Source: Propionibacteriaceae bacterium
Lineage (GTDB): Bacteria; Actinomycetota; Actinomycetes; Propionibacteriales; Propionibacteriaceae
DNA length: 64,000 bases
Reading direction: 5' to 3'
Assembly (NCBI GenBank): GCA_031266665.1
Contig: JAISAO010000071.1
Span: forward strand, 1 to 64,000
Each line of letters opens with the position of its first letter. The first letter of the stretch is position 1. This document shows, piece by piece, positions 24,680 through 41,792 of this stretch. The notes under the pieces are model-generated. The model ran no database searches. It was not told where the DNA came from and saw nothing but the letters and a program-made list of their open reading frames with translations. A program made the translations under genes and the position numbers.

Positions 24680-25264
24680 GTGATGGTGATGGGCCGGTTG
24701 TTGTCAGGTCGTCGTCGGCGGGTGGCCTCGGTCGCCCCGGTGGTGGCCCTGGCGGTGGCCCTGGCCGGTCTGGCGGTGGCCCAGGACGGTTTTGCCATCA
24801 CAGAGTTGGAGTTGGACGACTCGGGGGTCTGGGTGACCAGCCAGGCGCGGTTGAGCTTGGGGCGGTTCAATTACAACGCCGGCCGTCTGGACGGGGCCTT
24901 GGTGGCCTCGACCGATGATTTCGAGGTCCTGCAGGACGGCGCCCAAGTTTTCTTGCACGACCCGGTGGCGGGGCAGTTGGCGCAAGTGTCGCCGGCCCGG
25001 ATGGAGTTGGGCGGGCCGGTGGAGCTGCCGGCCGGGGCGCAGGTGGCGCTGGGGGGCGGCCGGGCGGCCGTCTGGGCGCCGAGCCTGGGCAGTTTGTGGG
25101 TGATGGCGGAGACGGCGGTGGCCAGTTTCCAGGTCGACTCGGAGGCTTTCCCGCCGGTTTTGACGGATTTGCCGGCCAACGCCGCCATGACGGTCGGGAC
25201 CGACGGGGAAACCCATCTGTTCGACCCCGCGGCCGGACGCCTGATTTCGCTGGGGGGGGGGTGA
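24680..25264 (+). CDS. N-terminal part of the giant Ig/FN3 surface protein (frame ends after a poly-G run)
   Basis: 194 residues. A basic start is followed by a hydrophobic segment (VAPVVALAVALAGLAVAQ, about 16-33), a signal anchor or signal peptide, then beta-rich sequence in which phrases such as VELPAGAQVALGGGRAAVWA look propeller-like. The frame ends in TGA right after ten G at 25252-25261. The next frame, open from within the run, continues DLAASITADRQLEGV into the 25305 ORF. With nine G the two would be one protein of about 2054 residues. In related operons this is normally a single gene, so the run is either a phase-variation switch or an indel artefact. Confidence 0.75.
   Translation: MMVMGRLLSGRRRRVASVAPVVALAVALAGLAVAQDGFAITELELDDSGVWVTSQARLSLGRFNYNAGRLDGALVASTDDFEVLQDGAQVFLHDPVAGQLAQVSPARMELGGPVELPAGAQVALGGGRAAVWAPSLGSLWVMAETAVASFQVDSEAFPPVLTDLPANAAMTVGTDGETHLFDPAAGRLISLGGG
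25252..25261 (+). repeat. Poly-G tract (G10) at the frame junction
   Basis: Ten consecutive G. Losing one G gives the continuous frame L-G-G-G-D-L-A-A-S; the present length gives an immediate TGA. Confidence 0.9.
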
Positions 25265-25304
25265 TTTAGCCGCTTCCATAACGGCCGACCGCCAACTGGA
25301 GGGG

Positions 25305-28300
25305 GTGCCCCAGGAGGGAGCTTTCGCCTTGACGGCGGTGGGCGACCGGCCGGTGGTGTGGTCGGCCGGGTCGCACCAGTTGTTCTGGGAGGGCGGTCAG
25401 GCGATGCCGCCGGCCGGGGCCGGGGATGTCACGGCGGCGGTCTTGCAGCAGCCGGGTCCGGCGGCCCCAGCGGTGGTCTTCGCCACGCCGGAGGCGGTGG
25501 TCAGCCAACCGTTGACCGGCGGGGAGGCGGTGGTGTCGCCGCCGGCGGTGACGGGCGGCCGGCCGGCCGCGCCGGTGGTCTTGGGGGGTTGTGTCTTCTC
25601 GGTCTGGAACTCGTCGGCGGCCTTCCGCCGGGATTGCCCGGACGCCGGGGACAGTTTGAGCCAGGTGGTGGAGGGGGCCAGCCCCCGGGACGAATTGAAG
25701 CTGCGCCAAAACCGTGGCCATGTGGTGTTGAACCAGGTCAACTCGGGGGGCCTGTGGCTGGTGACCGACGATTTGGAGCCGGTCGACAACTGGGACGACG
25801 TCATTCCGGCCACGGACGAGGGTGACGAGTTGGACGAGTCGTTGCAGGAGCAGGACGAGGAGGTGACGCCGGAGCGGAGCGAGGACAACCATCCGCCGAC
25901 CGCCCAGGACGACAGTTTCGGGGTGCGGCCGGGGGGCTCGTTCTTATTGCCGGTGGTGGAGAACGACCAGGACGAGGACGGCGACTTGTTGACGGCCGCC
26001 CTGGACGGGCCGCCGCCCAGCGTCGGCACGCTGGGGCTGGTGTACGCCGACTCGGTCTTCCAACTGACGGTGCCGGACGACGCCACCGGGTCGTCGTCCT
26101 TCCGCTACACCGTCTCGGACGGGCGCGGCGGCACGGCCTCGGCCAGGGTCTCCTTGGAGGTCGTCCGGCCGGAGTCGAACCGGCCGCCGGCCCCGGTGAC
26201 GGAGCGGGAGGCCAGCCGGCTGTACGTCTCGTCCGGCCAGAAGGTGTCCTACAACGTCTTGACGGATTGGCGCGACCCGGATGGGGACGAGATCTTCCTG
26301 GTGTCGGCGGCGCCGCCGGGGCCGGAGGACGTGGTGGTGGCGCGCCCGGACGGGACCATCGAGTTCCGCGACGGCGGCTATTCGACCGGGGTGAAGAAGG
26401 TCACGGTGGTGGTGTCGGACGGCCGCGAGGAGGCCACCGGCGAGTTGACGGTGGTGGTCTATCCGTCCGGCAACCACCGGCCGATCGTGCGCCCGGATCT
26501 GGCCTCGGGGCCGGTGGGCTCGCAGATTGTGGTCCAGCCGCTGTTGAACGACATGGACCCGGACGGGCAGACGTTGCGCCTGGTGGACGTGTCGGAGCCG
26601 GCCGGGGCGCAGGTGACGAAGGATTTGGACGCCGGGCGTTTCACGGTCCAGGGGTCGCGGCCGGGGAGCTTCTATTTCACCTACGCGGTGACCGACGGGC
26701 CGACGGCGGTCGAGTCGTGGGTGCGGGTGGACGTGACCGACGAGGCGCCGGTGGACGCGCCGCCGCTGGCGGTGCCGGACACGGTCCTGTTGCCCAAGGG
26801 GCAAGAGGTCTTGGCGGCGGTCTTGAACAACGACGTCAACCCGCTGGGCGGGCCGCTGGTGGTGACGCGGGTGCAGGCCCCGGACGGGGCGCCGGTGTCG
26901 GCGGCGGTGCTGAGCCACGCCAACGTCAAGGTGACGGAGCTGCGCCAGTTCGACCAGCCGGTGAAACTGGACTATTGGGTGTCCAACGGCAAGAGCACGG
27001 CCCGGTCGACCTTGACGGTGGTGTCGGTCAAGGCTCCGGAGACGATTCTGCCGCCGTCGGCCGGCGACGACGAGGTGCGGGTCAGGGCCGGCGACATCGC
27101 CACGGTGGCGGTGCTGGCCAACGACTCCCACCCCAACGGGGTGCCGCTGCGGCTGCGCCCGGAATTGGTGGGGGAGTTGCCGGACCCGGACTCGGAGGCG
27201 TTGGTCTTCACCGCCGGTAACAATATCCGTGTCCATGCTCGGCAGACCGCCGGTACTTACACGGTCCTCTATCAAGTGGAGGCGACCCAGGGTGACGCCG
27301 AGCCGGACACCGGCCGGCTGACCATCCATGTGATGGCCCCGGACCCGGAGCGCAACCAGCCGCCCCGGCCCCAGGAGGTCGAGGCCCGGACGGTGGCCGG
27401 GCAGCCGGTGACGATCAAGGTGCCGCTGGACGGCATCGACCCGGACGGCGACTACACGGTCCTGGCCTCTCTGGGGTCGGCCCCGGGCCAGGGCCGGGTG
27501 ACCGGACTGACCCAGGACGCGCTGGTCTACGACCCGGGCGAGCTGACGGTGGGCACGGTCGAGTTCGACTATGTGGTCAAGGACCGGCTGGGGGCCGAGG
27601 GCCGGGCCAAGATCCGGGTCGGGGTGGCCGGCGCCCAGACCCAGAACCACGACCCGATCGCCAACTCGGACGCGGTCGAGGTCAGGCCGGGGAGGCAGGT
27701 CGATGTTGATGTGACGGCCAACGACGCCGACCCGGACGGCGACGCCATCGTCTTGGCGGCGGACTCGGCCCGGTCGGACGATTTCACGGTCTCAACCCGG
27801 GACGAGCGGCTGGTCTTCACCGCCCCGACGGAGGAGGGCGATTATTCGGCCACCTATGTCATCCGCGACGCCTGGGGTCAGGAGGCGACCGGCGTGGTGA
27901 CGGTCAAGGTGCGCCAGGACGTGGCCTTGAAGAAGCCGCTGCCGCGCGACGACCAAGTCGACCGGCTAGAGGTCTTGCGCTCCGAGACGGGCACGGTCGA
28001 GGTCGAGGTGTTGAAGAACGACGACGACCCGGACGGCGATGCCACCAGCGACGATTTGCGGGTCGAGGGCGACACGGCGGTGGCCTCGGGCGGCCGGGTG
28101 ACGGTCACCCTGACCGCCGCCCAACAGTTGATCGACTACTCCCTGACCGACCCGGACGGCCTGGTCGGCCACGCCTTCATCACCGTCCCGGGGACGGATG
28201 AGATCCCACCCATGCTCGACCCGGACAGCGTCGGCCTGGAGGTCAAGGCCGGCGTCACCGTCCAGGCGGCCCTGGTCGATCACGTCCTGGTCGGCCCGGG

Positions 28301-30845
28301 CAAGACGCCCCGGGCGACCGAGGCCTCGAAGCTGTCGGCCTGGAACGGCGCCGCCGCCCTGGTGTCGGCCGACACGGTGTCGTTCGTCGTCCCGGAGGAT
28401 TACGTCGGCCCGGCGGCCATCTCGCTGGAGGTGGCCGACTCCACCGACGACGCCGCCCTGCGGGCCATGATCACCATCCCAGTGACGGTGACGGCGGCCG
28501 ACAAACGCAATCAGCCGCCCGAGTTGATGGGCGGACGGGTCGAGGTCGAGGCCGGCCAGGAGGCCCAACTGGGCCTGGCCGACTATGTGACCGACCCGGA
28601 CCCGGACGACAGCTTCAGCTTCACCGTCTCCCGGCCGCCGGCCCTGGACGGCGTGACCGCCGCCGTCGACGGGCCGACCTTGACGGTCAAGGCCGAGCGG
28701 ACGGTGGCCAAGGGCGCCGCCACCAGCTTGACGCTGGCGGTGACGGACGGCCACAACGACCCGGTGACGGCTCAGGTCGAGATCGTGGTGGTGGCCTCCA
28801 AACAACCCTTGGCCCAGGCGGTCGAAGACACGGAGCCGAACGCCAACCAAGGCAAGGACCATTGTTTGCAGGTGACGGCCAACGACGTCAACCCCTTCCC
28901 CGACACACCGCTCAAGGTGGTGGCGGCGGCGGTCGAGACCGGCCAGGGGTCGGCCTCCACCGGCTGCTCCGGCCAGGGCTCGGTCCAGGTCACGCCCGGG
29001 GCCAGCTTCGTCGGCCAGATGGTGGTGCGCTACACCGTCGAGGACGCCACCGCCGACCCGGACCGCCGGGTCGAGGGTCGCATCCGCTTGAACGTCAGGG
29101 GCCGTCCCGACGCCCCGGCCGGGCTGCACGTCGACCAGGTGGGCGACCAGACGGTCACCTTGTCCTGGTCCCCGGCCAACAACAACGGCGCCCCGGTGAC
29201 CAGCTACCAGGTGAGCGGCACGCCCGCTTACGGGCCGATCAACTGCGGCACCCAGACGGTCTGCGTCCTGACCGGGCTGACCAACAATGTGACTTACACC
29301 TTCACGGTCACGGCCACGAACGAGGTCGGGACCTCGGAGGCCTCGATGGTCTCGCCCGAGGCTAGGCCCGACACCTTCCCCAACCACGCCTCACCGCCGA
29401 CGCTGGTGTTCGGCGACACCAGCTTGACTGTGAGCTGGACCTACCCCGGCACTCGTGGCAGCCCAGTCACCGGCTACGTGTTAGAAATCTCGCCGCCGCC
29501 GACCAACGGCATCGCCCAGATTGGCGACCCGGCCTCCGGCGGTCAGCCGGGCACGACTTACATCTGGAGAGGACTGAAGAACGGCACCGAATACAGGGTT
29601 CGGATCTGCCCGGTCAACGCGGCGCCCGGGGTATGTGAGGATGAGGGCCAGTTCTCCAGCTACTCGGCCCCCGAGATCCCGGCCAAGCGGCCCGAGCCGC
29701 CGGCCGCGCCGACGGCCGCCCGGCTGCGCTCGGCTGGCACCGAGTCGGAGGTCCAGCTCACCTGGCAGCAGCCCGTCACCAACGGGGCCGAGATCAAGTC
29801 CTACCAGGTTGTGTCATCCGGCGGGGTGACCAAAACCTGGAATTTCCCCGCATCAGCCGCCGGGGCTCCCCAAACCCTTTCTCTGCCTGTTTCGACTAAC
29901 AACATCACCTTCCAAGTCAAGGCCGAGAACAAGGCCGGCTGGTCTGACTTCTCGCCCGCCTCAGCCCCCTTCCGCTCGATCGTCGAGCCCGGATCGGTCT
30001 CCAACATCGCCACCACCGACAAGGATGGGGCCTGCGGGCTGAGCTTCAGTCCGGCCGCCCTAAACGGCGCCAGCGCCTCCGAGGTCAGCTACCACTACCA
30101 GGTCAGCAACGGGGCCGTCGGCTCCTTCGGCATCTCTAACTCCGGGACCGTCACCGGGCTGTCCAACAGTCAGGCCTACACATTCACGGTCTGGGCGGTC
30201 ACAACCGTCCAAGGTGCCAGCTACGAGGGCGTTAAGACCACCAGCGGCCAGTGCAGTCCCTACGGCCCGCCCCTCAAGCCGGACGGCAACGCCCAGCCCG
30301 AGGGGGCAAAAGCCGTCCGGTTGTGGTGGGGCTCGGCCCCACCGTACAACGGCCGTTTCGTCGAGCGGGTCGAGTACATGGTCGACAACAACGGGACTTG
30401 GAACCACGGCGGTCTGGTGGGTGGCCAGATCGTGGTCGGCGACGCCTACTCGGAGCTGCATTGCATCAAGGTCCGCACCGTCGACAACCTGGGTCAGATC
30501 TCGGGCGAAAACGATTTCTGCGCCACCTCGAACCCTCGGCCGGCACCGTGGGTGAACATTACGCAGACCCAAACCGCCAGCAAGGTCAGCGGCGGGGGGG
30601 AAGCGCGCATCACTTGGGGCAACATTCCCGGCTCAAACCAAATCGTGATCTACAAGGGCGGCAAGTGGACGGGCTGTGTCTTCAACACCGGAAAAACTGA
30701 GGACTGCTTGAGCTTCTATCCTTCGGACGCTAATGGGAGCGGTATTAACACTTCCGGTGGTTGGAAAGCTTCGAGTTGCGGACTGACTATCCAAATAGAG
30801 ATAGCCGGGACCAAGTCGAACGTGATTACTTGGAACTGCAGTTAA
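25305..30845 (+). CDS. Giant Ig-like/fibronectin type III surface protein (main part)
   Basis: 1846 residues from the GTG at 25305, though its frame is open back into the poly-G run and probably belongs to the same protein as 24680-25264. From about residue 200 come repeated Ig/cadherin-like domains marked by NDQDEDGD, NDMDPDGQ, DGIDPDGD and NDADPDGD. From about residue 1267 fibronectin type III domains follow (PDAPAGLHVDQVGDQTVTLS; TYTFTVTATNEVGTSEAS). No LPXTG is seen; the end is SNVITWNCS. The last 150 bp are less GC-rich than the rest. It heads the MoxR-DUF58-transglutaminase-FHA-EssC operon. Such proteins are probably surface-displayed and adhesive or structural; ligand unknown. Confidence 0.85.
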   Translation: MPQEGAFALTAVGDRPVVWSAGSHQLFWEGGQAMPPAGAGDVTAAVLQQPGPAAPAVVFATPEAVVSQPLTGGEAVVSPPAVTGGRPAAPVVLGGCVFSVWNSSAAFRRDCPDAGDSLSQVVEGASPRDELKLRQNRGHVVLNQVNSGGLWLVTDDLEPVDNWDDVIPATDEGDELDESLQEQDEEVTPERSEDNHPPTAQDDSFGVRPGGSFLLPVVENDQDEDGDLLTAALDGPPPSVGTLGLVYADSVFQLTVPDDATGSSSFRYTVSDGRGGTASARVSLEVVRPESNRPPAPVTEREASRLYVSSGQKVSYNVLTDWRDPDGDEIFLVSAAPPGPEDVVVARPDGTIEFRDGGYSTGVKKVTVVVSDGREEATGELTVVVYPSGNHRPIVRPDLASGPVGSQIVVQPLLNDMDPDGQTLRLVDVSEPAGAQVTKDLDAGRFTVQGSRPGSFYFTYAVTDGPTAVESWVRVDVTDEAPVDAPPLAVPDTVLLPKGQEVLAAVLNNDVNPLGGPLVVTRVQAPDGAPVSAAVLSHANVKVTELRQFDQPVKLDYWVSNGKSTARSTLTVVSVKAPETILPPSAGDDEVRVRAGDIATVAVLANDSHPNGVPLRLRPELVGELPDPDSEALVFTAGNNIRVHARQTAGTYTVLYQVEATQGDAEPDTGRLTIHVMAPDPERNQPPRPQEVEARTVAGQPVTIKVPLDGIDPDGDYTVLASLGSAPGQGRVTGLTQDALVYDPGELTVGTVEFDYVVKDRLGAEGRAKIRVGVAGAQTQNHDPIANSDAVEVRPGRQVDVDVTANDADPDGDAIVLAADSARSDDFTVSTRDERLVFTAPTEEGDYSATYVIRDAWGQEATGVVTVKVRQDVALKKPLPRDDQVDRLEVLRSETGTVEVEVLKNDDDPDGDATSDDLRVEGDTAVASGGRVTVTLTAAQQLIDYSLTDPDGLVGHAFITVPGTDEIPPMLDPDSVGLEVKAGVTVQAALVDHVLVGPGKTPRATEASKLSAWNGAAALVSADTVSFVVPEDYVGPAAISLEVADSTDDAALRAMITIPVTVTAADKRNQPPELMGGRVEVEAGQEAQLGLADYVTDPDPDDSFSFTVSRPPALDGVTAAVDGPTLTVKAERTVAKGAATSLTLAVTDGHNDPVTAQVEIVVVASKQPLAQAVEDTEPNANQGKDHCLQVTANDVNPFPDTPLKVVAAAVETGQGSASTGCSGQGSVQVTPGASFVGQMVVRYTVEDATADPDRRVEGRIRLNVRGRPDAPAGLHVDQVGDQTVTLSWSPANNNGAPVTSYQVSGTPAYGPINCGTQTVCVLTGLTNNVTYTFTVTATNEVGTSEASMVSPEARPDTFPNHASPPTLVFGDTSLTVSWTYPGTRGSPVTGYVLEISPPPTNGIAQIGDPASGGQPGTTYIWRGLKNGTEYRVRICPVNAAPGVCEDEGQFSSYSAPEIPAKRPEPPAAPTAARLRSAGTESEVQLTWQQPVTNGAEIKSYQVVSSGGVTKTWNFPASAAGAPQTLSLPVSTNNITFQVKAENKAGWSDFSPASAPFRSIVEPGSVSNIATTDKDGACGLSFSPAALNGASASEVSYHYQVSNGAVGSFGISNSGTVTGLSNSQAYTFTVWAVTTVQGASYEGVKTTSGQCSPYGPPLKPDGNAQPEGAKAVRLWWGSAPPYNGRFVERVEYMVDNNGTWNHGGLVGGQIVVGDAYSELHCIKVRTVDNLGQISGENDFCATSNPRPAPWVNITQTQTASKVSGGGEARITWGNIPGSNQIVIYKGGKWTGCVFNTGKTEDCLSFYPSDANGSGINTSGGWKASSCGLTIQIEIAGTKSNVITWNCS

Positions 30846-30890: not shown

Positions 30891-31856
30891 TTGCCCGGAA
30901 TGACCGACGATCAGGCCCAGTGGTTCCAGACCACCTTCGAACAGTTGGTGGGCAATGTCTCCCAGGCCGTGCTGGGCAAGCCGGAGGTCATCCGGCTGGC
31001 CTTGACCTGCCTGTTGGCGGAGGGCCATCTGCTGCTGGAGGACGCCCCCGGCACCGGCAAGACCTCGCTGGCCAGAGCCATCGCCGCCACCGTCGACGGC
31101 GTCGACAAGCGCATCCAGTTCACTCCCGACCTACTGCCCAGCGATGTCACTGGGGTGACCATCTTCGACCAGGGCCAAGGCGCCTGGGTCTTCCGCCCCG
31201 GGCCGGTCTTCGCCTCCATCGTCTTGGCCGACGAGATCAACCGGGCCAGCCCCAAGACCCAGTCGGCCCTGCTGGAGGTGATGGAGGAGGGCCAGGTGAC
31301 CGTGGACGGGGAGACCCGGCCGGTGGGGCGGCCCTTCATGGTCATCGCCACCCAGAACCCGATCGAGCAGGCCGGCACCTACCGGTTGCCCGAGGCCCAG
31401 CTGGACCGCTTCCTGATGAAGACCTCGATCGGCTACCCCGACCGGACGGCCACGGTCGAGATCCTGTCCGGGTCCACGGTCAAGAACCGGGCCGCCGCCC
31501 TGACGCCGCTGATCACCACCCAGGCGGTGGGCGACATGGCCGACCTGGCCGGGGAGGTCAACCTGGAGCCGGCCGTGCTGGACTACATCGCCCGGCTGAC
31601 CGAGGACACCCGGGAGGCCATGGAGACCCGGGTCGGCGTGTCGGTGAGGGGGGCGCTGGCGATGGCCCGGACGGCCAAGGTCTGGGCCGCCGCCCAAGGC
31701 CGGGCCTACGTCACCCTGGACGACGTCAAGCGGCTGGCCGGGCCGGTCTGGACCCACCGGCTGGTGTTGGAGCCCGAGGCCGAGTTCTCCGGCGCCACCG
31801 CCCCCCAGGTGATCGCCGCCGCCCTGGCCCAGACCCCTGTGCCGCAGGGGCGTTAG
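30891..31856 (+). CDS. MoxR-family AAA+ ATPase
   Basis: 321 residues. Walker A EDAPGTGKTSLARAI (about 48-62), Walker B IVLADEINRASPKTQSALLE (about 106-125), sensor 1 MVIATQNPIEQAGTYRLPEA. MoxR ATPases act as chaperones in complex assembly and usually pair with a DUF58 protein, as here. The start is TTG at 30891, because AAGGAGA ends 5 bp before it; the ATG at 30900 is too far away. Only 45 bp separate it from the surface-protein stop, so one operon is likely. It may help assemble the secretion or surface machinery. Confidence 0.93.
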   Translation: MPGMTDDQAQWFQTTFEQLVGNVSQAVLGKPEVIRLALTCLLAEGHLLLEDAPGTGKTSLARAIAATVDGVDKRIQFTPDLLPSDVTGVTIFDQGQGAWVFRPGPVFASIVLADEINRASPKTQSALLEVMEEGQVTVDGETRPVGRPFMVIATQNPIEQAGTYRLPEAQLDRFLMKTSIGYPDRTATVEILSGSTVKNRAAALTPLITTQAVGDMADLAGEVNLEPAVLDYIARLTEDTREAMETRVGVSVRGALAMARTAKVWAAAQGRAYVTLDDVKRLAGPVWTHRLVLEPEAEFSGATAPQVIAAALAQTPVPQGR

Positions 31857-31860
31857 ACCA

Positions 31861-33207
31861 ATGGCTGCCGAGTCGGCTCCGGCGGTGGCGGGCCGCCCGG
31901 CCCGGCCGCGCCCGGCCCGCGCCCGCCCGCTGTCATGGGCCTGGCGCCGCCCGGTCGAGGCGGCCGGCCGGTTGGGCCAGGCGTTGAGCCGCTGGCAGAC
32001 CCATTGGGCGGAGCGTCTGGGGCCGACGCTACGGCCGTGGTGGGGCCGGCTCAAACCGCTGTTGGCGACCGTCCGACCGCTGGGCTGGGTGGCTTTGGCC
32101 GTCATCGCCTTGGCCTGGCCGCTGGGCCGGCGGCTGGGCTGGGCCGAGTTGACGGCGGCGGCGTTGGCGTTGACGGCCGCCTGGATCGCCGCCCTGGGCT
32201 TCGTCCTGGGGCGCTCGACCTATCAGGTGACGGTCGACGTCGCCCGGTTGCGGGTGACGGTCGGGGACAAGGCCTTCGGCGGCCTGACCATCGCTAACAT
32301 CGGCCCCCGGGCGGTCTTGGCCTCCGACTTCGTCCTGCCGGTCGGACGCGGTCGGGCCAGTTTCCGGGCCCCCCGCCTGGCGCCTGGCCAGGACCACCAG
32401 GAGAGCTTCCAGATTCCGACCCAGCGGCGGGCCGTGGTGCCGCTGGGGCCGGTCCGCTCGTCCCGGGGCGACCCGGTCGGCCTGCTGCGCCGCGACCTGG
32501 TCTGGAGTCAACAATTAGAATTGTTCGTGCATCCGGCCACCGTCTCCCTGGAGGGCTCCAGCGCCGGCTTCCTGAAAGACCTGGAGGGCCGCCCGACCGA
32601 CACCCTGTCCAGCTCCGACGTGGCCTTCCACGCCCTGCGCGACTACGTCATGGGCGACGACCTGCGCCACGTCCACTGGAAGACCTCGGCCCGGCTGGGC
32701 AAGCTGATGGTGCGTCAGTTCGAGGAGACCCGGCGCTCCCACCTGGTGGTCTGCCTGGCCATGGACGAGTCGGAGTGGCCCTCGCCGGAGGCCTTCGAGC
32801 TGGGCGTCAGCCTGGCCGCCTCGCTCGGCCGCCAAGCCCTGCACGAGGACAAGGACCTGACCATTCGGGCGCCCGGCCGGACACTGCAGACCGGCACCGA
32901 GCAGCGCCTGTTGGACGATTTCTCGCGCCTGGACTTCGGCGGCCCGCAAGAGTCCCTGGAGATGGTCGCCCAGGCCGCCGCCGCCGACGCTCCCGACGCC
33001 TCGGTGGCCGTGCTGGTGGCCGGGTCCAACCTGTCGGGGGCCCGCTTCCACGCCGCCGCCCGCCGCTTCCCGGTCGACGTGGCCACCGTCCTGGTGCGGG
33101 TCGAGCCCGGCCTGGCCCTGGGCCGGGGGGCCATCGCCAGCTCGGCCGTGCTGACGGTGGGCGCCCTGGGCGACTTCCCCCGGGCTTTTAGATCGCTGGG
33201 GGCCTGA
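31861..33207 (+). CDS. DUF58 membrane protein
   Basis: 448 residues. A basic Pro-rich N-terminus, two membrane helices at about 78-120 (VALAVIALAWPLGRRLGWAE; ALALTAAWIAALGFVLG), then the DUF58 domain with its signature DYVMGDDLRHVHWKTSARLG near 260-280 and a von Willebrand-like C-terminal part (VCLAMDESEW). DUF58 proteins are the usual partners of MoxR ATPases and precede transglutaminases, an order conserved here. It starts 4 bp after the moxR stop and its stop overlaps the next ATG by one base. Confidence 0.92.
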   Translation: MAAESAPAVAGRPARPRPARARPLSWAWRRPVEAAGRLGQALSRWQTHWAERLGPTLRPWWGRLKPLLATVRPLGWVALAVIALAWPLGRRLGWAELTAAALALTAAWIAALGFVLGRSTYQVTVDVARLRVTVGDKAFGGLTIANIGPRAVLASDFVLPVGRGRASFRAPRLAPGQDHQESFQIPTQRRAVVPLGPVRSSRGDPVGLLRRDLVWSQQLELFVHPATVSLEGSSAGFLKDLEGRPTDTLSSSDVAFHALRDYVMGDDLRHVHWKTSARLGKLMVRQFEETRRSHLVVCLAMDESEWPSPEAFELGVSLAASLGRQALHEDKDLTIRAPGRTLQTGTEQRLLDDFSRLDFGGPQESLEMVAQAAAADAPDASVAVLVAGSNLSGARFHAAARRFPVDVATVLVRVEPGLALGRGAIASSAVLTVGALGDFPRAFRSLGA

Positions 33208-35660
33208 TGACCGCCAAACGCTCGAAGCGCTCGAAGCGCTCGAACAGTGCCGGCCCGACGGCCGCCACCCGCTCGAACCGCTCCGCCCGCTCCACCCGCC
33301 CGAACAACGCCACTTCGACGGCGTCCGCCAGCCGCCCCAGTCGGGCCACCTTGTTGGCCGCCACCAGTCATTCGAATAGCGCCAGCGTGACCGCCGGCCG
33401 TCTGAACCGCTCCGGCCTGCTCGACCTGGGGGCCATGGTCGTGTTGCTGGCGGCCGGGCTGGCCGGCTTCTGGCCGGTCTTCGCCGGCCCCGGCTTCGTG
33501 CCGGCGGCCGGCGTCGGCCTGGCCCTGGGGGTGGCGGTGGCCGGGTTGTCCGCCTGGCGGCGCTGGAACACCGCTCTAACCGCCCTGGCGGTGGTGGTGG
33601 CCTATTTCCTGGGCGGTGCCGCCGGCCTGCCGGAGCGGGCCATCGGCCACGTCCTGCCCGGTCTGGCGACCCTGCGGGGGCTGGTCTTCGGGCCGGTCGA
33701 GGTGTGGCGCCAATTCCTCACCGCCACCACGCCGCTGGACAGCTTCGCCGGCCTCAAGCTGGTCCCCTACCTGGTCGGGCTGCTGGGCGGTGTGACCTGT
33801 CTGACGGCCGCCTGGCGGGCGCGACCGGCCGCCTGGGCGCTGCTGCCGGCCGCTGTGGTCTTCGTCGGCGTCATCGTCTTGGGCACGACCGAGGCCTTCC
33901 AGCCGACCGCCCAAAGCCTGGTTTGGCTGGCCGTGGCCCTGGTCTGGCTGGCCTGGCGGCGGCGGACGGCCCAGCCTCAGGCGGCGGCCGAGAGCCGGGC
34001 GGCCCGGCGGGCGCGCTGGCTGGGCCTGGCCCTGATCCTGGCTGTGGCCGGCGGTGCCGGTCTGGCCGGACCGGTCCTGAGCGGCGACCAGCCTCGGCTG
34101 GCGGCCCGTTCCCAGGTGGTGCCGCCGCTGGACCTACGGGCCTACGCCTCGCCCCTGACCTGGTTCAGGGCCTACACCGACCAGCAAGCCGAGACCGCCC
34201 TGTTCAGCGTCAGCGGCTGGCCGGAGGGTGCCCGGCTGCGCCTGGCCGTGATGGACGCCTTCGACGGCATGGTGATGAACGTCTCCAGCCAGTCGCGCGA
34301 CGCCCGCTACGACCGGGTGGGGCCCCGGTTGGGCCGCCCCGGCCAGACGCCGGCCGACAGCCAGGTCGAGGTCACGGTCGAGTCCTACCGGGGGGTCTGG
34401 GCACCGGGGGTCAGCCAGTTGCGCACGGCCGAGTTCGCCGGCCCCAGGGCCGAGGCCCTGGCCGCCGCGCTGTATTACAACGCCGACGCCGACGCCCTGG
34501 TCGACCCGGCCGGATTGACGACCGGCGATAGCCTGACCCTGGGCGTGGCCCTGGCCTCGGTGGGGCCGGAGCAGGCCCGGGACCACGCCGTCGACCAGAC
34601 GGTCGACCAGCCCCGGCCGCTGCAGGTCCCCGACGCCGTCACCGAAATGGGCTCGCGGCTGAGCGGCGACGCTCGCGACGGCTTCGAACAGGTCCAGAAC
34701 ATCACCGCCGGGCTGTCCCAGTCGGGCTTCTTCTCGCACGGCCTGGAGTCGCAGGAGGCCTCCCAGCCGGGCCACTCCAGCCGCCGGCTGGCCGACCTGC
34801 TGGCCAACCCCGACCGGATGGTGGGCGACGACGAGCAATACGCCGTGGCCGCCTGCCTGATGCTGCGCCAGCTCGGCCTGCCGGCCCGGGTGGTGATGGG
34901 CTTCTGGCCCGACGACCAGTCCCAAATCCGGGACGGCGTCTGGACGGTCACCGGGTCCGACGTCCACGCCTGGGTCGAGGTGCCCTTCGTCGGCCTCGGC
35001 TGGGTGCCTTTCGACCCGGTGCCGGACGAGGACCAAGAGCCGATGGAGGAGACCCCGCAGTCGCACTCCGAGCCCAAGCCGCAAATCCTGCAACCGCCGC
35101 CGCCGGCCGACGAGCCGGAGGCCGACGAGCCGGAGAACCTGCCCGACGACCGCCGTTCGGAGGAGGACAAGCCCAAGGCCTTCGACTGGCGGCGGGTGTT
35201 GGCCTGGGCCGGCGCCGGGGCCGGGGCATTGCTCTTGTTGGCGGGGCCGCCGTTGTTGATCGCCGCCCTCAAGCGCCATCGCCGCCAGCGGCGGCAGCGG
35301 GCGACTGACCTGTCGGCCCGGCTGGTCGGCGGTTGGCAGGAGCTATTGGACCGGGCGGCCGACCTCGGCACGGTGGTGCCGGCGGCCGCCACCCGGCGCG
35401 AGGCCGGCCGGCTGCTGGCCGCCCGACACCGCCGGGCCGAGGGTCTGGAGGCGTTGGCCGCCAGGGCCGACCGGGCCGTCTTCGCCGCCGCTCCTCCCAG
35501 CTCGGACGAGGCCGGCGCCTACTGGGAAGCCGTGGCCGGCGCCCGCCAGGCCCTCGGCCGCTCACTCTCCCGGCGACGGCGGGCGCGGGCGGCCTGGGCG
35601 CTGGTCTCCCTGCGCCGCCATCCCCGTCCCACCGTCGCGTTGGAGGAGGTCGCCGTATGA
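33207..35660 (+). CDS. Membrane transglutaminase-like protein (TgpA type)
   Basis: 817 residues. A Ser/Arg/Asn-rich N-terminal tail (about 1-65) precedes several membrane helices (70-300), an outer transglutaminase-like domain and a further helix near 675. The catalytic triad is visible: Cys in EQYAVAACLMLRQLGLPARV (near 550), His in DVHAWVEVPF (near 585), Asp in GWVPFDPVPDED (near 600). Enzymes of this type may cross-link or process envelope proteins. It forms the third gene of the MoxR-DUF58-TgpA set. An acidic linker (about 605-660) separates the domain from the last helix. Confidence 0.9.
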   Translation: MTAKRSKRSKRSNSAGPTAATRSNRSARSTRPNNATSTASASRPSRATLLAATSHSNSASVTAGRLNRSGLLDLGAMVVLLAAGLAGFWPVFAGPGFVPAAGVGLALGVAVAGLSAWRRWNTALTALAVVVAYFLGGAAGLPERAIGHVLPGLATLRGLVFGPVEVWRQFLTATTPLDSFAGLKLVPYLVGLLGGVTCLTAAWRARPAAWALLPAAVVFVGVIVLGTTEAFQPTAQSLVWLAVALVWLAWRRRTAQPQAAAESRAARRARWLGLALILAVAGGAGLAGPVLSGDQPRLAARSQVVPPLDLRAYASPLTWFRAYTDQQAETALFSVSGWPEGARLRLAVMDAFDGMVMNVSSQSRDARYDRVGPRLGRPGQTPADSQVEVTVESYRGVWAPGVSQLRTAEFAGPRAEALAAALYYNADADALVDPAGLTTGDSLTLGVALASVGPEQARDHAVDQTVDQPRPLQVPDAVTEMGSRLSGDARDGFEQVQNITAGLSQSGFFSHGLESQEASQPGHSSRRLADLLANPDRMVGDDEQYAVAACLMLRQLGLPARVVMGFWPDDQSQIRDGVWTVTGSDVHAWVEVPFVGLGWVPFDPVPDEDQEPMEETPQSHSEPKPQILQPPPPADEPEADEPENLPDDRRSEEDKPKAFDWRRVLAWAGAGAGALLLLAGPPLLIAALKRHRRQRRQRATDLSARLVGGWQELLDRAADLGTVVPAAATRREAGRLLAARHRRAEGLEALAARADRAVFAAAPPSSDEAGAYWEAVAGARQALGRSLSRRRRARAAWALVSLRRHPRPTVALEEVAV

Positions 35661-35743
35661 GTCGGTCGCTCTGCCGCCACCGGGCGTTGATCTGCCGGCG
35701 CCGATGTTCCCGTCCTGTCGTCGTGTTGGAGGAGGTCGTATGA
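35657..35743 (+). CDS. 28-codon linker ORF duplicating the preceding gene's end
   Basis: ATG overlaps the transglutaminase stop (ATGA) and its own stop overlaps the next FHA gene's ATG in the same way. It has its own GGAGGAGGTCG Shine-Dalgarno. Its end, CSRPVVVLEEVV, echoes the end of the transglutaminase, HPRPTVALEEVAV, so this looks like a tandem duplication of about 85 bp that copied a termination-reinitiation site. Probably no separate function. Confidence 0.5.
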   Translation: MSRSLCRHRALICRRRCSRPVVVLEEVV

Positions 35744-37188
35744 GTCAGCCGGTGGTCGACTGCCAGCGTTGTGGCCGACCGCTCGAGGCCGGGTCGCAGG
35801 GCTGTGACTGCGGCGGCGTGCCAGCGGTCCGCCTTCAGGACGCCGCCACGACCCTCAAGGCCCCAGCGGCCCCGGGCCGGGCCGGGCTGATCACGGCGGT
35901 GCCCGGGGTCGTCCGCCGCGACCGGCCGGCCGCCGCCGCGCCGCCCGCCCGGCCGATGATCGCGGTGCCGCCGCCGCTGCTGGCGGTCCAGGCCGGCCCC
36001 AAAGGGTTGCCGCCGCCCCCCGGATTGCCGCCCCGCGGGTTCGTCCCGCCGCCGCCCGTCGGGTTCGTCCCGCCGTCAGTGGTTCCGGTTGTGCCGCCGC
36101 CGTCAGTGGTTCCGGTCGCGCCGTCACCGCTGGTCTCGCTGGCCGCTGTGCCGCAGACGCCAGTGGTCTCATCGGTCATCTCGCCAGTGGCCCCGGCGGT
36201 CGTGCCGTCGCCGCCTCAGGCGGCCTCGCCCTGGGCCGCGCCGCCGCCGGCCGCTTTGGTCCCGCCGCCCCCGCCGCCGGGACTGGCCGCGCCTTTCTCG
36301 GACGCCGCTGGGCCGGCCGCCCCGGGAGGGAGGCTCGTCCCGCCGCCGCCCCCGCCGCCTTGGCCCGTGGTCGCGTCGCCGCCGGCCGCCGCGCCGCCGT
36401 GGGAGGTCGCCGGGTCGCCGGGCTCTACTGGGCAGCCGCCGGCCCCGTCGTGGACCGCCGGGCCGGCGCTACCGGGCTCGGCCTCGCCGGCCTCGGTGGC
36501 GGTCCTCACGCCGCCCCCGCCGCCGGGCTGGGACGCCGCCCGGCCGCCCGGGGCGGGGCCGACACCTTGGGCCGCCGCCCCCGGAGGGCTGCCGTCCCTG
36601 CCGCCCTGGGCCGTCCCCGCCGTCCCGCCGCCGGACCCGGCCCCGCCGTGGGCCGTTCAGCCGTCGGACCAAGTCGTGCCACCGTGGGCCGCCGGCCCGT
36701 CGCTGACGCCCCCGCCGCCCCCGGCCGTGGCCGTGGCGGCGCCGCTAGCCGCTCCCGCCGGACTGCCCTCAGCACTGCCGCCGGCCCGGCCGGACGACCC
36801 AGACGAGTCGGACGAGGAGGCCGTGACCCACCTGTCCTGGTCGGCGGTGGCGGCCCCGCCGGCCGGCGTCCAATTCCAGTTCGCGGACGGTCGGCGGGTG
36901 GCGGTGACCGGCCCCGGGCTGATCGGGCGTGACCCGGTGGCCCGCGACGGCGCCCAGGCGGTGGTGCTGGACGACCCCGGCCACTCGATCTCCAAGACCC
37001 ACCTGGAGTTCGGCCTCGACCAGGGCCGGCCCTGGGTCAAAGACCGGGGCTCGACCAACGGTTCGACCATCACCCGGCCGGGCCAGTCGGCCCAACGGTT
37101 GGAGCCCAAGACCCAGGTCTACGTGGCGGCCGGAGACATCATCGGTTGCGGCCATAGCCGCTTCGAGGTTTGGCCGGGGCCGACATGA
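35740..37188 (+). CDS. Zinc-ribbon and FHA-domain protein
   Basis: 482 residues from the ATG at 35740, which has GGAGGAGG 5 bp upstream. A short zinc ribbon (CQRCGRPLEAGSQGCDCGG, about 7-25) is followed by some 330 Pro/Ala-rich residues and a C-terminal FHA domain (about 378-474) with IGRDPVARDG, HSISKTHLEF and DRGSTNGSTI (the conserved GR, SxxH and N). FHA domains bind phosphothreonine, so this is a likely target or adaptor for the kinase at 40038, reset by the PP2C phosphatase next door. It overlaps both neighbours by ATGA. Confidence 0.88.
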   Translation: MSQPVVDCQRCGRPLEAGSQGCDCGGVPAVRLQDAATTLKAPAAPGRAGLITAVPGVVRRDRPAAAAPPARPMIAVPPPLLAVQAGPKGLPPPPGLPPRGFVPPPPVGFVPPSVVPVVPPPSVVPVAPSPLVSLAAVPQTPVVSSVISPVAPAVVPSPPQAASPWAAPPPAALVPPPPPPGLAAPFSDAAGPAAPGGRLVPPPPPPPWPVVASPPAAAPPWEVAGSPGSTGQPPAPSWTAGPALPGSASPASVAVLTPPPPPGWDAARPPGAGPTPWAAAPGGLPSLPPWAVPAVPPPDPAPPWAVQPSDQVVPPWAAGPSLTPPPPPAVAVAAPLAAPAGLPSALPPARPDDPDESDEEAVTHLSWSAVAAPPAGVQFQFADGRRVAVTGPGLIGRDPVARDGAQAVVLDDPGHSISKTHLEFGLDQGRPWVKDRGSTNGSTITRPGQSAQRLEPKTQVYVAAGDIIGCGHSRFEVWPGPT

Positions 37189-38030
37189 CCGGGCCGGCCT
37201 TTCCCCAGCTCCAAGTCGCCCAGGGGACGCACCCGGGGCGGCGCCGGCGTCTCAACGAGGACGCCGTGGTGGCCAGTTTCCCCTGCTTCCTGGTGGCCGA
37301 CGGCATGGGCGGCCACGACCGGGGCGAGCGGGCCAGCGCCATCGTGGTCGAGGAGCTGGGGGCCCTGGCCGGACGGGTCGACCTGGGCGTCGAAGAGGTC
37401 CGCGACAGCTTGGCCCAAGCCCGGCGGCGGATCGCCCAGGTGGCCGGACGCGACCAGCGGCACGCCCCCGGCACCACCGTCAGCGGCATTGTGCTGGTGG
37501 TCTTGGAGGGCGAGCCCTACTGGCTGGTGGTCAACCTGGGCGACTCGCGCACCTATCGGCTGAGCCGCGGCCGGCTGGAACAGATCTCGGTCGACCACTC
37601 CGAGGTCCAGGAATTGTTGGACGGCGGCCGGATAGACGACGACCAGGCGCGTAACTATTTCCGCCGCCACGTCGTCACCCGCGTCCTGGGGGCCGGCATC
37701 GTCGAGCAGCCCGACTACTGGCTGTTGCCGCCGGAGCCGGAGGAGCGCTGGCTGATCTGCTCGGACGGGCTGACCGGCGAGCTGCCCGACCAACACTTGA
37801 TGGCCGTCCTGAGCGACCAGCCGACGCCGCAGGGGGCGGTCGACGTCCTGCTGGCGGCCGCTCTGGAAGCCGGCGCCAGAGACAATGTCTCTTTGATTGT
37901 GGTGGACGCCTGCCAGCCGTCGGCCGCGGACGACTTGGCTCCCACGGTCGAGGAGATAGCCGCTGCGGGCGCGGCCGGCGAGGTCGACGACGACACCGTG
38001 CCCATGCCCGTGACAGGGCGGGCGCCATGA
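37185..38030 (+). CDS. PP2C-family serine/threonine phosphatase
   Basis: 281 residues from the ATG at 37185, which overlaps the upstream stop. PP2C metal- and phosphate-binding motifs are in order: RRRLNEDAVV, FLVADGMGGHDRGERAS, LVVNLGDSRTYRLSRG, WLICSDGLTGE and GARDNVSLIVV. No membrane helix, so it is cytosolic, unlike mycobacterial PstP. The obvious partner is the Ser/Thr kinase three genes on; together with four FHA proteins they form a local phospho-signalling unit inside the secretion operon. Confidence 0.95.
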   Translation: MTGPAFPQLQVAQGTHPGRRRRLNEDAVVASFPCFLVADGMGGHDRGERASAIVVEELGALAGRVDLGVEEVRDSLAQARRRIAQVAGRDQRHAPGTTVSGIVLVVLEGEPYWLVVNLGDSRTYRLSRGRLEQISVDHSEVQELLDGGRIDDDQARNYFRRHVVTRVLGAGIVEQPDYWLLPPEPEERWLICSDGLTGELPDQHLMAVLSDQPTPQGAVDVLLAAALEAGARDNVSLIVVDACQPSAADDLAPTVEEIAAAGAAGEVDDDTVPMPVTGRAP

Positions 38031-38179
38031 CCGGCCGCCATACCGCCGGGACCGCCGGGGCGGGCGTCGCCGCCGAGCCTGTGATCGGTCGCGCCCTGAT
38101 CAGCCGCCGCGCCGCCGGGGCCGTGGCGGCGGACGGGGCGATCACCGCCGCCGTGCCTTTGATAGGTCGAACATTATGA
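38027..38179 (+). CDS. 50-codon Ala-rich linker ORF
   Basis: Starts on ATGA overlapping the phosphatase stop and ends on ATGA overlapping the next FHA gene, so ribosomes could pass through it. The product (MTGRHTAGTAGAGVAAEPVI ... AVPLIGRTL) is Ala/Gly-rich with no recognisable domain. The double overlap shows the frame is kept; whether the peptide matters is unknown. Confidence 0.5.
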   Translation: MTGRHTAGTAGAGVAAEPVIGRALISRRAAGAVAADGAITAAVPLIGRTL

Positions 38180-40041
38180 CAACCCGCTATGCCGTCGGAG
38201 CCTGGTTGGCGCTAGTCGCCCCCCGGGCCTGCGCCCTGCTGCCCGCCACCACCGAGGCCGACCGGGCCGACCGGCTGTGGGCCGCCCTGGCGGCCCAGGA
38301 CGGTTTCGACGCCGTCTTCGGCCGCCTGATCGAGGGCAATCTGGCCGACCTGCCGTCCTTCGCCCTGGCCGTGCTGGGGCCCGAGGACTGCCGGCTGGCG
38401 GTCCGGGGGCCGCTGCGGGTGACCCTGGAGACGGCTCAGGGCGAGATCCGCCGAGACGGCCGCCGAGTCGCCACCTGGCGCGAGGACAGCGTGGCCGGCC
38501 CGGTCCGGCTGCGCCTGGAGGCCATCGACCAGCCGGGCGGCCAGGAGCTGGGGCTGGAGTCGGGCCAGGTGCTGGCCGCCTGGGTGGAGCTGGACCCGGC
38601 CGAGCCAACGCCGGACCTAGCGGCGCCGCCGGCCCGGCGGGCGGCGGAGGGGGCGGACCCGTCCGCGCTCGCGCCGTCCGCGCCCGCGTCTTCTGGGTCC
38701 AAACCCGCGTCGTCCGCCCCAGGGTCGTCCGCCACGTCGTCCGCGTCTTCCGAGTCCGCCCCAGGGTCGACCGAGGAGGTGTCGTCTGAGTCCACGCCGG
38801 ACCGCGCGCCCGCGCTGTCCGGGTCCGCGCCCGCGCCGCTCACGTCGTCCGTGCCGTCCGCGTCCCAGCCCGGTTCGGCCGCCGTCGTGCCGTCCGCGCC
38901 CGCATCGCCCGTGCCCACACTCGGGGCGTCCGGGTCTGCGTCGTCCGGGTCCGAGCCGCGCGTGCCCGCGTCGTCCGAGTCTGAGCCCGCGTCGTCCGCG
39001 TCCCAGCTCGGTTCGGCCGTGCCCGCGTCAGTGCCGCCCACGTTTGCGTACGTGCCGTCTGCGCCAGCGCTGCTCGTGCCCGGTCCGACCGCCGTCGTGT
39101 CGTCCGTGCCCGGGTATCCGATCGCGCCGGTTCCGGTCCCGCCAGACCCGCCGCCGGTCCCGGCCGAGCACAGCGGGCAGACGACCTATCTGCCCCTGGA
39201 CGACGACTCTTGGAGCCAGGCGGGCGGCGACGGGCCGGGCGGCTACGACCGCCTCTTCGACCCCTTCGACCAACCCACCCGGCTGTCGACGACCGAGGCC
39301 GCCGGCCCTGGCCAGCCGCCCCCGGCGCCGCCGCCCCCGGCGACCCCAGTACCGCCGCCTCCCGCCGCCCAGACCGAGGACGACTGGGGGGACGACCACG
39401 ACGGTATGACGGTGGCCAGTTTCAGCCTGGCCGCCCCGCCGCCCGGCTCTGCCGTGCCGCCAGACGCCGCCGTGCCTTTCCCGGGTGCCGTTCCCTCCCC
39501 GGGCGTTGCGCCTTTCCCGGGCGCCGCACCCTCCCCCTATCCGTCCCGCCAGACCGCCGCTGCCGCCGCCGCGCCGGGGCAGGCCACCGTCTTGGCCCGT
39601 TTGTGCGCCGCCTGCGGACGGCCCAACTCGACCCTGCGCCCCCAGTGCGCCGGCTGCGGACAACCGCTGGGCGGCGACGCCCGGCGCATTCCGAGGCCGG
39701 TGTTGGGCCAGCTCAAGCTCTCGACCGGGGAGCTGATCCCGCTGGACCGGCCGGTCGTCTTCGGGCGCCGCCCCAAGGCGGCCCGCTTCTCCAACGCCGA
39801 CCTGCCCCGCCTGGTGGCGGTCAACGGCCCCCGCCAAGACATCTCGCGCTCCCACTTCAAGATCGACTTGGACGAGTGGAGCGTGTTGGCGTCCGACGCC
39901 GGCTCGACCAACGGCACGGTCCTGCGCCGGGCCGGCCAGCCGGACCGCCGACTACGGCCGGGCGAGCAGGTGGTGGCCCAGGCCGGCGACCTCTACGACT
40001 TGGGCGACGGCGTGACCATCAAGGTGGTGGAATTGGCATGA
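38176..40041 (+). CDS. Second zinc-ribbon and FHA-domain protein, Ser/Pro-rich
   Basis: 621 residues. The N-terminal 150 residues form a globular part (WLALVAPRACALLPATTEAD) of no known family. Then come about 320 low-complexity residues rich in Ser, Ala and Pro, a zinc ribbon (CAACGRPNSTLRPQCAGCG, near 476-494) and a C-terminal FHA domain (about 510-620) with FGRRPKAARF, DISRSHFKID and SDAGSTNGTVL. Layout resembles the 35740 protein with the ribbon moved next to the FHA domain. It overlaps the kinase start by ATGA. The Ser/Thr-rich middle is a plausible phosphorylation region. Confidence 0.87.
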   Translation: MTTRYAVGAWLALVAPRACALLPATTEADRADRLWAALAAQDGFDAVFGRLIEGNLADLPSFALAVLGPEDCRLAVRGPLRVTLETAQGEIRRDGRRVATWREDSVAGPVRLRLEAIDQPGGQELGLESGQVLAAWVELDPAEPTPDLAAPPARRAAEGADPSALAPSAPASSGSKPASSAPGSSATSSASSESAPGSTEEVSSESTPDRAPALSGSAPAPLTSSVPSASQPGSAAVVPSAPASPVPTLGASGSASSGSEPRVPASSESEPASSASQLGSAVPASVPPTFAYVPSAPALLVPGPTAVVSSVPGYPIAPVPVPPDPPPVPAEHSGQTTYLPLDDDSWSQAGGDGPGGYDRLFDPFDQPTRLSTTEAAGPGQPPPAPPPPATPVPPPPAAQTEDDWGDDHDGMTVASFSLAAPPPGSAVPPDAAVPFPGAVPSPGVAPFPGAAPSPYPSRQTAAAAAAPGQATVLARLCAACGRPNSTLRPQCAGCGQPLGGDARRIPRPVLGQLKLSTGELIPLDRPVVFGRRPKAARFSNADLPRLVAVNGPRQDISRSHFKIDLDEWSVLASDAGSTNGTVLRRAGQPDRRLRPGEQVVAQAGDLYDLGDGVTIKVVELA

Positions 40042-41792
40042 GCCCGGCCAAACGCGCCTCCGTGCCGCCGGTCATCCCCGGCTACGAGCCCCAGAACCTG
40101 CCCGGCAAAGACCACAACCTGATCGGCCAGGGCGGCTTCGCCGACGTCTTCTTGTACCGCCAGTCCAACACCCGGCGCAATGTGGCAATTAAAGTCTTGT
40201 TGGCCGAGGCGGTCGACCAGGGGGCCGCCCAACGGTTGCACGACGAGGCCAGCGTCATGGCGGGGCTGTCCCAGCACCCCAACATCGTCACCGTCTTCAC
40301 CTCCGAGACGGCCCGCGACGGCCGGCCCTGCCTGGTGATGGAGTACTACCCCCGGCCGTCTTTGGCTGAGGGTCTGCGCGGCGCCCGCCATTCGGTCATC
40401 GACGTCCTGGCCATCGGCGTACAACTGGCCGGGGCCGTCGAGTCGGCCCACCGCGTCCCCATCTTGCACCGCGACATCAAGCCGGCCAATATCCTGGTCG
40501 ACCGCTCCGGGCGGCCGATGCTGGGCGACTTCGGCATCGCCATGGAGGTGGCCCAGGCCAGCCAGCAGGCCGAGGGACTGTCCGTCCCCTTCAGCCCGCC
40601 GGAGGCCTTCGCCGACCCGCCCAAGGCCTACCCCCAGTCCGACGTCTGGGGCTTGGCCGCCACCCTCTACGCCCTGCTCAGCGGCCGGCCCCCCTTCGCC
40701 AGCCCGGGCGACAACCGGGACTACGCCATGGCCGACCGCATCTGCCACGCGCCTTACCGGCCGTTGGGCCGCCCGGACGCGCCGGCCGCGCTGGACCAGG
40801 TGCTGGCCACCGCCATGGCCAAGGACCCGGCCCACCGCTACCCCACCATGCGGGCCTTCGGCATCGCCTTGAACGGGGTCGAGGACGAGATGGGCACGGC
40901 CACCACCCGGATGGACATCATCGACGACAACCCCGACGATGACGAGGACGAGGACGAGGATGAGGAGGGCACCCGGCTGCGGCCGATCACCTCGATTGAC
41001 CCGGAGGGGCCGGCCGGCCGGCCGCCGACCGCGCCCGGACCCCTGATCGGCTGGCCCTCACTGCGAGCCGCCCCCTCGACCGGCTGGCACTCCGCCTCCG
41101 GCCCCAGCACGTACGGCGCCTCCACCTCCGGCTTATCCGGCCCTTCCGCCCCCAGCGCCCACAGCGCCTCCGGCCCGTCGCTCCCCGGCTGGGCGGCCTC
41201 CGGGCCGACTTTGGCGCCGGGCGCGCCCCCGCCCTTCGACGCCGGCTCGCAAACCGTGCTGCGGCAGGCGGTCCTGGGAGTCACGCGGCAGCGCCCGACC
41301 GCCCCGGAGTCCCCGCCCGTCCCGGATGAGCCGGTGGAGGAGCCGGAGCCGGCCCGGCCGCGCGCCTGGTGGAAGGTTTGGCTGCCACTGGCGGTGGCGG
41401 CGCTGATAGGGGTCGTCATTTGGCTCATCGTCTGGTCCAGCGGCCCCAGGACGCCCGAGGCCATCGACGGCCCCGGCCAGGCCACCAGTTCGGCCCCGGG
41501 CGAGGTCGACAACCCCCTGGGGCCGGCCGCCCCGCCCGCCCCGGCCGATCTGGTCTGCCTCAAACAGGACCAGGTGGCCCACTGCAGCTGGACCAACCTC
41601 GACCCCCAGCCCGGCGACGTCTACCGCTGGATGGTCACCAACGACCCGGCGGCGGTCTCCAACCGGGTGGCCGAAGCGGCCGCCGACGTGCCCATCCCAG
41701 AAGGCCAGTTGACGGTCTGCGTCGAGGTCGTGGTGGTCCGTTCCAACGGCGTCGGCTCGCTCGCCGCCAACACCTGCGCCCGGGCGTCATAG
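40038..41792 (+). CDS. Transmembrane serine/threonine protein kinase
   Basis: 584 residues. Complete Hanks-type kinase domain: glycine loop IGQGGFADVF (about 29-38), NVAIKVL with the ATP lysine near 51, HRDIKPANIL near 144, LGDFGIA, and SPPEAF in the activation-segment position. An acidic stretch near 295-315 and a Ser/Gly/Pro linker lead to one membrane helix (WLPLAVAALIGVVIWLIVW, about 447-465) and a small outer domain with paired cysteines, possibly FN3-like. There are no PASTA repeats, so it is not a typical PknB. It overlaps the upstream FHA gene by ATGA. Likely substrates are the FHA proteins and EssC-like ATPase of this operon. Confidence 0.95.
   Translation: MSPAKRASVPPVIPGYEPQNLPGKDHNLIGQGGFADVFLYRQSNTRRNVAIKVLLAEAVDQGAAQRLHDEASVMAGLSQHPNIVTVFTSETARDGRPCLVMEYYPRPSLAEGLRGARHSVIDVLAIGVQLAGAVESAHRVPILHRDIKPANILVDRSGRPMLGDFGIAMEVAQASQQAEGLSVPFSPPEAFADPPKAYPQSDVWGLAATLYALLSGRPPFASPGDNRDYAMADRICHAPYRPLGRPDAPAALDQVLATAMAKDPAHRYPTMRAFGIALNGVEDEMGTATTRMDIIDDNPDDDEDEDEDEEGTRLRPITSIDPEGPAGRPPTAPGPLIGWPSLRAAPSTGWHSASGPSTYGASTSGLSGPSAPSAHSASGPSLPGWAASGPTLAPGAPPPFDAGSQTVLRQAVLGVTRQRPTAPESPPVPDEPVEEPEPARPRAWWKVWLPLAVAALIGVVIWLIVWSSGPRTPEAIDGPGQATSSAPGEVDNPLGPAAPPAPADLVCLKQDQVAHCSWTNLDPQPGDVYRWMVTNDPAAVSNRVAEAAADVPIPEGQLTVCVEVVVVRSNGVGSLAANTCARAS

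Follow-up and report, generated by a model that had tools for sequence, protein, structure and literature searches.

A ten-guanine tract dividing the fn3 gene of a Propionibacteriaceae surface-protein cluster is a candidate slipped-strand switch

The fn3 locus and its gene cluster

The window, by which we mean the whole 64,000-nucleotide stretch of Propionibacteriaceae DNA analysed here, carries on its forward strand a gene for a large fn3-domain protein that is open in two pieces. The first frame (24680..25264, +) starts with GTG, encodes 194 residues and matches the N-terminal part of orthologous proteins. It ends in a TGA (25262..25264, +) directly after ten consecutive guanines (25252..25261, +), a tract, here called G10, that was read directly and also returned by a genome-wide pattern search. 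The second frame (25245..30845, +), offset from the first by one position, is preceded by a stop at 25242-25244 and is open through the tract from 25245; it comprises 1,866 codons from stop to stop, or 1,846 residues from the first listed start (GTG at 25305) to the end at 30845, and encodes the rest of a beta-propeller, Big_9/cadherin-like repeats and two fn3 domains. These 1,846 codons contain no internal stop. An earlier note on this DNA had placed a run of ten guanines exactly at the junction of two long frames, with the second open right back into the run, and both points are borne out. Codon scoring, the open frames and ortholog alignments agree that the frame changes at G10 and that the flanks are otherwise intact, and the two pieces combined, which the note had put at about 2,054 residues once fused, are of the size seen in orthologs, whose open frames span 1,991 to 2,133 codons. 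A search of positions 23900-25400 for a sigma-70-type promoter just ahead of or inside the fn3 gene gave no site. Independent translation from the internal GTG at 25305, which has a GGAGG-like stretch ahead of it, was also considered; such a start is possible, but would yield a protein without the anchor and without part of the propeller.

The fn3 gene is followed on the same strand by genes for a MoxR-type AAA ATPase (30891..31856, +; AAA_3 and AAA_lid_2 domains), a DUF58 protein (31861..33207, +; domain match), a transglutaminase-like membrane protein (33207..35660, +; Transglut_core and TgpA_N), an FHA-domain protein (35704..37188, +; domain match), a PP2C phosphatase (37170..38030, +; ORF as listed, with a provisional start codon), a second FHA-domain protein (38176..40041, +; domain match) and a Ser/Thr protein kinase (39210..41792, +), whose listed ORF overlaps the preceding gene and probably has its true start later than 39210. 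Beyond the cluster lies a gene for a 1,633-residue FtsK/SpoIIIE protein with an FHA domain (42859-47757, +), which is possibly linked to a secretion system. On the other side, a 694-residue CdiA_C (contact-dependent growth inhibition) protein is encoded on the opposite strand (21893-23974, −), and this divergent upstream neighbour makes it probable that the unit begins with fn3. Farther upstream, an AAA_14/DUF4143 ATPase (19506-20723, +) matches the PADLOC candidate defence model PDC-S01 (E 1.4e-136).

The consecutive fn3, AAA-ATPase, DUF58 and transglutaminase genes are those that mark the PFNA operon. In PFNA, the kinase gene pkb2 comes first, directly before fn3, whereas none of the nine upstream ORFs scanned here encodes a kinase; for this reason the cluster is, on present gene content, better described as PFNA-like than as a PFNA member.

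Predicted protein structure at the break

The first frame contains a 19-residue hydrophobic stretch (residues 15-33; 24722..24778, +; hydropathy 2.44) that is predicted to be a membrane anchor and has its counterpart in a helix at residues 43-59 of an ortholog model. This model covers the first 500 residues of the frame at locus L039, folded with a 16-row alignment (mean pLDDT 76.1), and consists of helix 43-59 followed by strands from 75 to 440. Its best matches in the PDB are beta-propellers (best E 2.2e-08), with modest TM-scores (0.21 to 0.47, normalised by query length, across the 50 matches listed). The two pieces of the window gene join at ortholog residues 217 and 227, and the model places the break in a hairpin turn that links strands 212-220 and 226-234 of what is predicted to be a membrane-anchored beta-propeller. 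In the alignment, orthologs differ in length at this very site, and insertions and deletions therefore seem to be tolerated there in protein terms. With its predicted anchor and extracellular-type domains, the fn3 product is a candidate surface-linked protein.

Orthologs carry both pieces in one frame

For comparison, ORFs of at least 150 codons were taken from fetched loci, with the window's own locus excluded and some contigs present in duplicate. When the two pieces were searched separately, the left piece was matched by 93 ORFs and the right piece by 97; 92 ORFs at 86 loci contain both in one open frame, one further ORF matches the left piece only and five further ORFs match the right piece only. 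Judged by these comparisons, the two frames are one gene, and the alternative of two separate genes is ruled out by the 92 ORFs that hold both pieces in a single frame. Residues 1-432 of the right frame were matched in 26 of 57 genomes, own genome included, with no stop within any of the matches listed, and against three orthologs the right frame aligned over 1,742 to 1,840 of its 1,846 residues at 42-52% identity. Of all ORFs examined, only the window gene is broken at the junction.

None of the 92 two-piece ORFs has a G or C run of at least 7 at the junction, the longest being 6, so that retention of a tract in related genomes, a supporting but not a defining feature of contingency genes, is not seen. 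The earlier note had proposed that intact relatives with a non-homopolymeric junction would speak against phase variation, and all 92 two-piece ORFs are of this kind. Their bearing on the question is slight, however, because the nearest orthologs compared are only about 50% identical at the protein level, and because homopolymer tracts of this kind usually arise lineage by lineage.

Frequency and context of long G tracts

By base composition alone, a G10 in the window is not rare, because both models used expect about one: for runs of at least 10 per 64 kb, a first-order Markov model of the window gives 1.5 of G and 0.9 of C, and synonymous redraws of nine coding pieces (eight genes) of the fn3 cluster give 0.94 runs of at least 10. 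The same redraws expect 10.2 runs of at least 7 against one observed besides G10, and G or C runs of this length are thus avoided in the cluster genes. Across the window there are 38 G/C runs of length 6 and one each of lengths 7, 8, 10 and 16.

The 3.28 Mb genome contains 17 G/C runs of at least 10, of which seven are close to a contig end (within 200 bases) and ten are internal. Two of the internal runs lie in coding frames, namely the window G10 (out of frame) and a G10 on contig C19 (in frame), the left flank of which scored 0.24, just below the codon-score cut-off of 0.25; of the others, one on contig C84 has a single coding-like flank and seven are noncoding on both sides. The C19 tract (locus L105, G000:C19:23158-23167) is found shortly past the lipobox-like start of a gene for a family-5 solute-binding lipoprotein. 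A coding G9 on contig C81 of the same genome is also in frame as assembled. The genus comparison drew on sister records that include Hm464, Hs463 and TD116, which, going by the style of their names, we take to come from termite guts. Among 53 internal runs of at least 9 scored across the genus, two were classed as coding with differing frames (the window G10 and one at G012:C66), although these labels are rough, with the codon models of some sister genomes built on few codons. Other long tracts of the genus are mostly noncoding, and the coding G10 is therefore atypical. In the fetched stretches, 34 of 84 runs of at least 9 have a contig end within 200 bases; these are either sequencing artefacts or places where assemblies break at variable tracts.

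Mismatch repair and promoter-linked tracts in the genus

A NucS_C domain was matched in 19 of 19 genomes of the genus, some of which are incomplete (the lowest 64%), and MutS_V in none of the 19; in control genomes, NucS was matched in 7 of 14 and MutS_V in 11 of 14. NucS of Mycobacterium smegmatis leaves indels of 1-2 bases unrepaired, a property that the authors of that study connect with phase variation (PMC11551767), and by analogy across genera homopolymer slippage may also go uncorrected in the genus studied here.

Several long G tracts are placed as if in the spacer of a promoter. In 9 of 47 cases the −35-like box TTGAC stands in the 24 bases ahead of the G run, against 0.74 in shuffles (0/2000), where the 47 are internal runs of at least 10 collected without the promoter pattern; three pattern-fetched runs were excluded, and 15 of 75 sister-genome rows, each of which begins in the first 141 bases of a contig, fell outside the sample. 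Among permuted-motif controls, CAGTT, GTTCA and TGTCA occurred twice each, TTGCA once and ACTTG four times, the last against 0.76 expected (14/2000). TANNNT downstream of G tracts is not significant by itself (12/47 against 8.37; 164/2000 shuffles), and TTGAC occurs upstream of C tracts in 3/47 against 0.62 (46/2000); these two results and those for the permuted motifs weaken the promoter reading. The combined pattern TTGAC-G8-TANNNT, with spacers of 16 to 22 nt, has nine sites in 7 of the 19 genus genomes, where its reverse has none. Elsewhere, 5 of 179 further genomes from the family have it (none in 198 for the reversed pattern), as do 14 of 395 others from a sample of the phylum (16 sites, against three for the reversed pattern). 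Fisher tests by genome gave p of about 1e-5 for both contrasts, the genomes within one genus not being independent of each other. The corresponding poly-C pattern was found in 0 of the 19 genus genomes, and its reversed control at one site.

These TTGAC-G-tract sites with a −10-like hexamer are candidate phase-variable promoters that appear to be enriched in the genus. Those in the window's own genome are at G000:C101:40251-40281, ahead of a gene for an ABC transporter ATPase, at G000:C63:53750-53780, and at G000:C88:160851-160865, ahead of a gene for a WG-repeat lipoprotein; the sister-genome sites are at loci L149-L157, and in three of six further promoter-pattern loci listed (L149, L154 and L157) a short protein that looks secreted, as judged by eye, adjoins the tract.

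The window itself contains a second long tract, outside fn3: 16 cytosines on the forward strand (57756..57771, no strand assigned), noncoding and 59 bases ahead of an ORF at 57831-58379 with zinc-ribbon-like and membrane segments. TTGAC overlaps the start of this C16 tract, which does not match the G-tract promoter pattern. A homolog of the ORF in sister genome G004 is preceded by a tract of its own, TTGAC-G10-TACTTT; among the four loci of this family outside the own genome, a run of at least 8 is present in G004 and none in G013 (two loci) or G002. Five similar membrane modules stand in a row in this part of the window (53627-58376; at 53627, 55584, 56130, 57343 and 58197), with 64-69% identity to the last, which suggests a local expansion of a gene family. 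The product of a further gene (58556-59860, −) combines an LRV_2 repeat domain with a NADase_transloc domain of discoidin-like type, and LRV_2 is found also in 56326-57531.

A slipped-strand switch and its alternatives

We favour, with a little better than even confidence, the interpretation that G10, which lies in the first tenth of the fn3 gene, acts as a slipped-strand contingency site and was caught in the OFF state. Replication slippage on the tract would change the number of guanines; at some lengths the ribosome would continue into the rest of the anchored fn3 protein (ON), and at the assembled length translation would end after 194 codons (OFF), with an anchored stub of half a propeller as the product. 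The OFF state might in addition lower the expression of downstream cluster genes by polarity. At ten bases the tract exceeds the length of about 8 or more, in a coding region or a promoter, that is expected of a contingency gene, and its persistence, in a loop of variable length among orthologs and despite the scarcity of runs of at least 7 in the cluster genes, speaks for a switch, as do the TTGAC-linked G tracts of the genus and its NucS matches in the absence of any MutS_V match. Of the phase-variation reading offered in the earlier note, the structural part stands: one gene is interrupted by a homopolymer, a membrane anchor is predicted near its N terminus, its domains are of surface type and its context speaks for slippage. 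The reading as a whole is plausible, and has more support from this context than the sequence alone gave it. Variation of tract length in the population, switching of the protein and selection for the switch are all steps that we infer.

The strongest competitor is an ordinary frameshift, in which a G run owed to base composition would have slipped and so inactivated fn3, in this lineage or just in this sample; the change would be reversible in principle, but no selected switch. The run statistics are compatible with it, composition alone permitting about one such run, as are the 92 orthologs, none of which has the tract, and the tract lengths of Propionibacterium (Cutibacterium) acnes, which track clades (PMC4746626). 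The absence of further decay, both from the 1,846 codons of the second frame and from the scanned genes after fn3, argues against it, and we regard it as unlikely overall. An old pseudogene is disfavoured as well, a second lesion being absent from the same 1,846 codons.

We give slightly less weight again to an assembly or sequencing indel, by which the true tract would have another length and the gene would be intact in all cells. Homopolymers are prone to error, and the many runs near contig ends noted above show the same concern in this data set. Yet G10 lies deep inside its contig, and the coding runs on C19 and C81 are in frame as assembled. In short-read assemblies, indels in 10-base runs are rare, and the k119 contig names of the sister records are typical of such assemblies, to which the own genome may also belong. 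A precedent for the indel does exist in a G tract whose database length is reported not to be the main length in the population (PMC9187656). Recoding, in which RNA polymerase or the ribosome would slip on the tract and the full protein would always be made at a low level from unchanged DNA, is very improbable: a homopolymer at the junction with frames open on both sides would suit it, as would the work on transcriptional slippage cited in PMC9187656, but a programmed site would be expected to be conserved and is present in 0 of the 92 ORFs, and DNA slippage accounts for the same facts.

If G10 does vary, as the slipped-strand switch predicts, a conserved actinobacterial surface cluster, linked in bifidobacteria to host sensing, would be under random on/off control, and a single gut population would mix cells with and without the fn3 cluster. 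A coding case and promoter cases from uncultured bacteria would then join a mechanism so far described in few cultured actinobacteria, and that mechanism would be tied to a repair system that leaves small indels unfixed. More tentatively, and at somewhat less than even confidence, the genus, one of uncultured gut-type Propionibacteriaceae, may use poly-G slippage, unchecked by NucS-type repair, as a genome-wide switchboard that combines promoter tracts with the translational switch in fn3. In such a switchboard the promoter-spacer tracts would precede genes for secreted proteins, lipoproteins and transporters, and the fn3 switch might turn the whole PFNA-like surface-sensing cluster on or off.

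Comparison with known systems

The bifidobacterial PFNA operon comprises genes for an FN3 protein, an AAA-ATPase, a DUF58 protein and a transglutaminase together with FHA, phosphatase and Ser/Thr kinase genes, and its FN3 protein is membrane-linked with two fn3 domains (PMC8430577). The window cluster shares the order fn3-ATPase-DUF58-transglutaminase, the nearby FHA, phosphatase and kinase genes and the two fn3 domains, but its kinase gene is downstream instead of directly before fn3 and its host is not a bifidobacterium (PMC8430577). The terms ‘phase variation’ and ‘frameshift’ are absent from the main text of the PFNA paper (PMC8430577). Titles and opening lines of abstracts, in a search that covers the subscription literature thinly, gave no published report of such a tract for an fn3 gene of the PFNA type or for Propionibacteriaceae from termite guts.

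Homopolymer switching as such is less exceptional in actinobacteria than the earlier note held; ‘uncommon’ is too strong, with published cases of switching or of length variation in Bifidobacterium breve, P. acnes and Gardnerella (PMC9187656, PMC3224659, PMC4746626, PMC11287997). Gardnerella, also an actinobacterium, has many tracts of at least 8, mostly upstream of genes and about a quarter in ORFs; the affected genes often encode surface proteins, and one tract varies in vitro, although A/T as well as G/C tracts were counted there and the genes are different from those in the window (PMC11287997). P. acnes shares with the window organism the family-level name and the use of G/C tracts, and its known cases include PPA1880 and PPA2127 (PMC3224659) and 54 variable tracts (PMC4746626), some of them intragenic and frameshifting, with surface and secreted proteins included. 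The PPA1880 promoter (11-15 G; spacers of 18-23 nt) is built in the same way as the promoter tracts of the genus (PMC3224659). Unlike in the window, the P. acnes cases affect other genes, fn3 not being named among the cases considered here (PMC3224659, PMC4746626), and their tract lengths follow clades, from which the authors suggest slow change and not active switching (PMC4746626).

The most similar arrangement is that of bbr_1889 and bbr_0113 in B. breve UCC2003, which belong to sortase-dependent pilus operons and have intragenic tracts of G10 and G11 as annotated; the tracts split the first operon gene into two frames, the reference is OFF, and polarity on the downstream genes has been proposed (PMC9187656). 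The B. breve length variation was measured by error-controlled sequencing, whereas the fn3 G10 is known from an assembly, and the genes concerned are pilus genes there and one for a beta-propeller/Ig protein here (PMC9187656). In both organisms an intragenic G tract splits the first gene (in the case of fn3, probably the first) of a surface-structure unit (PMC9187656), and by this analogy bbr_1889 can be seen as a close precedent for the G10 of fn3.
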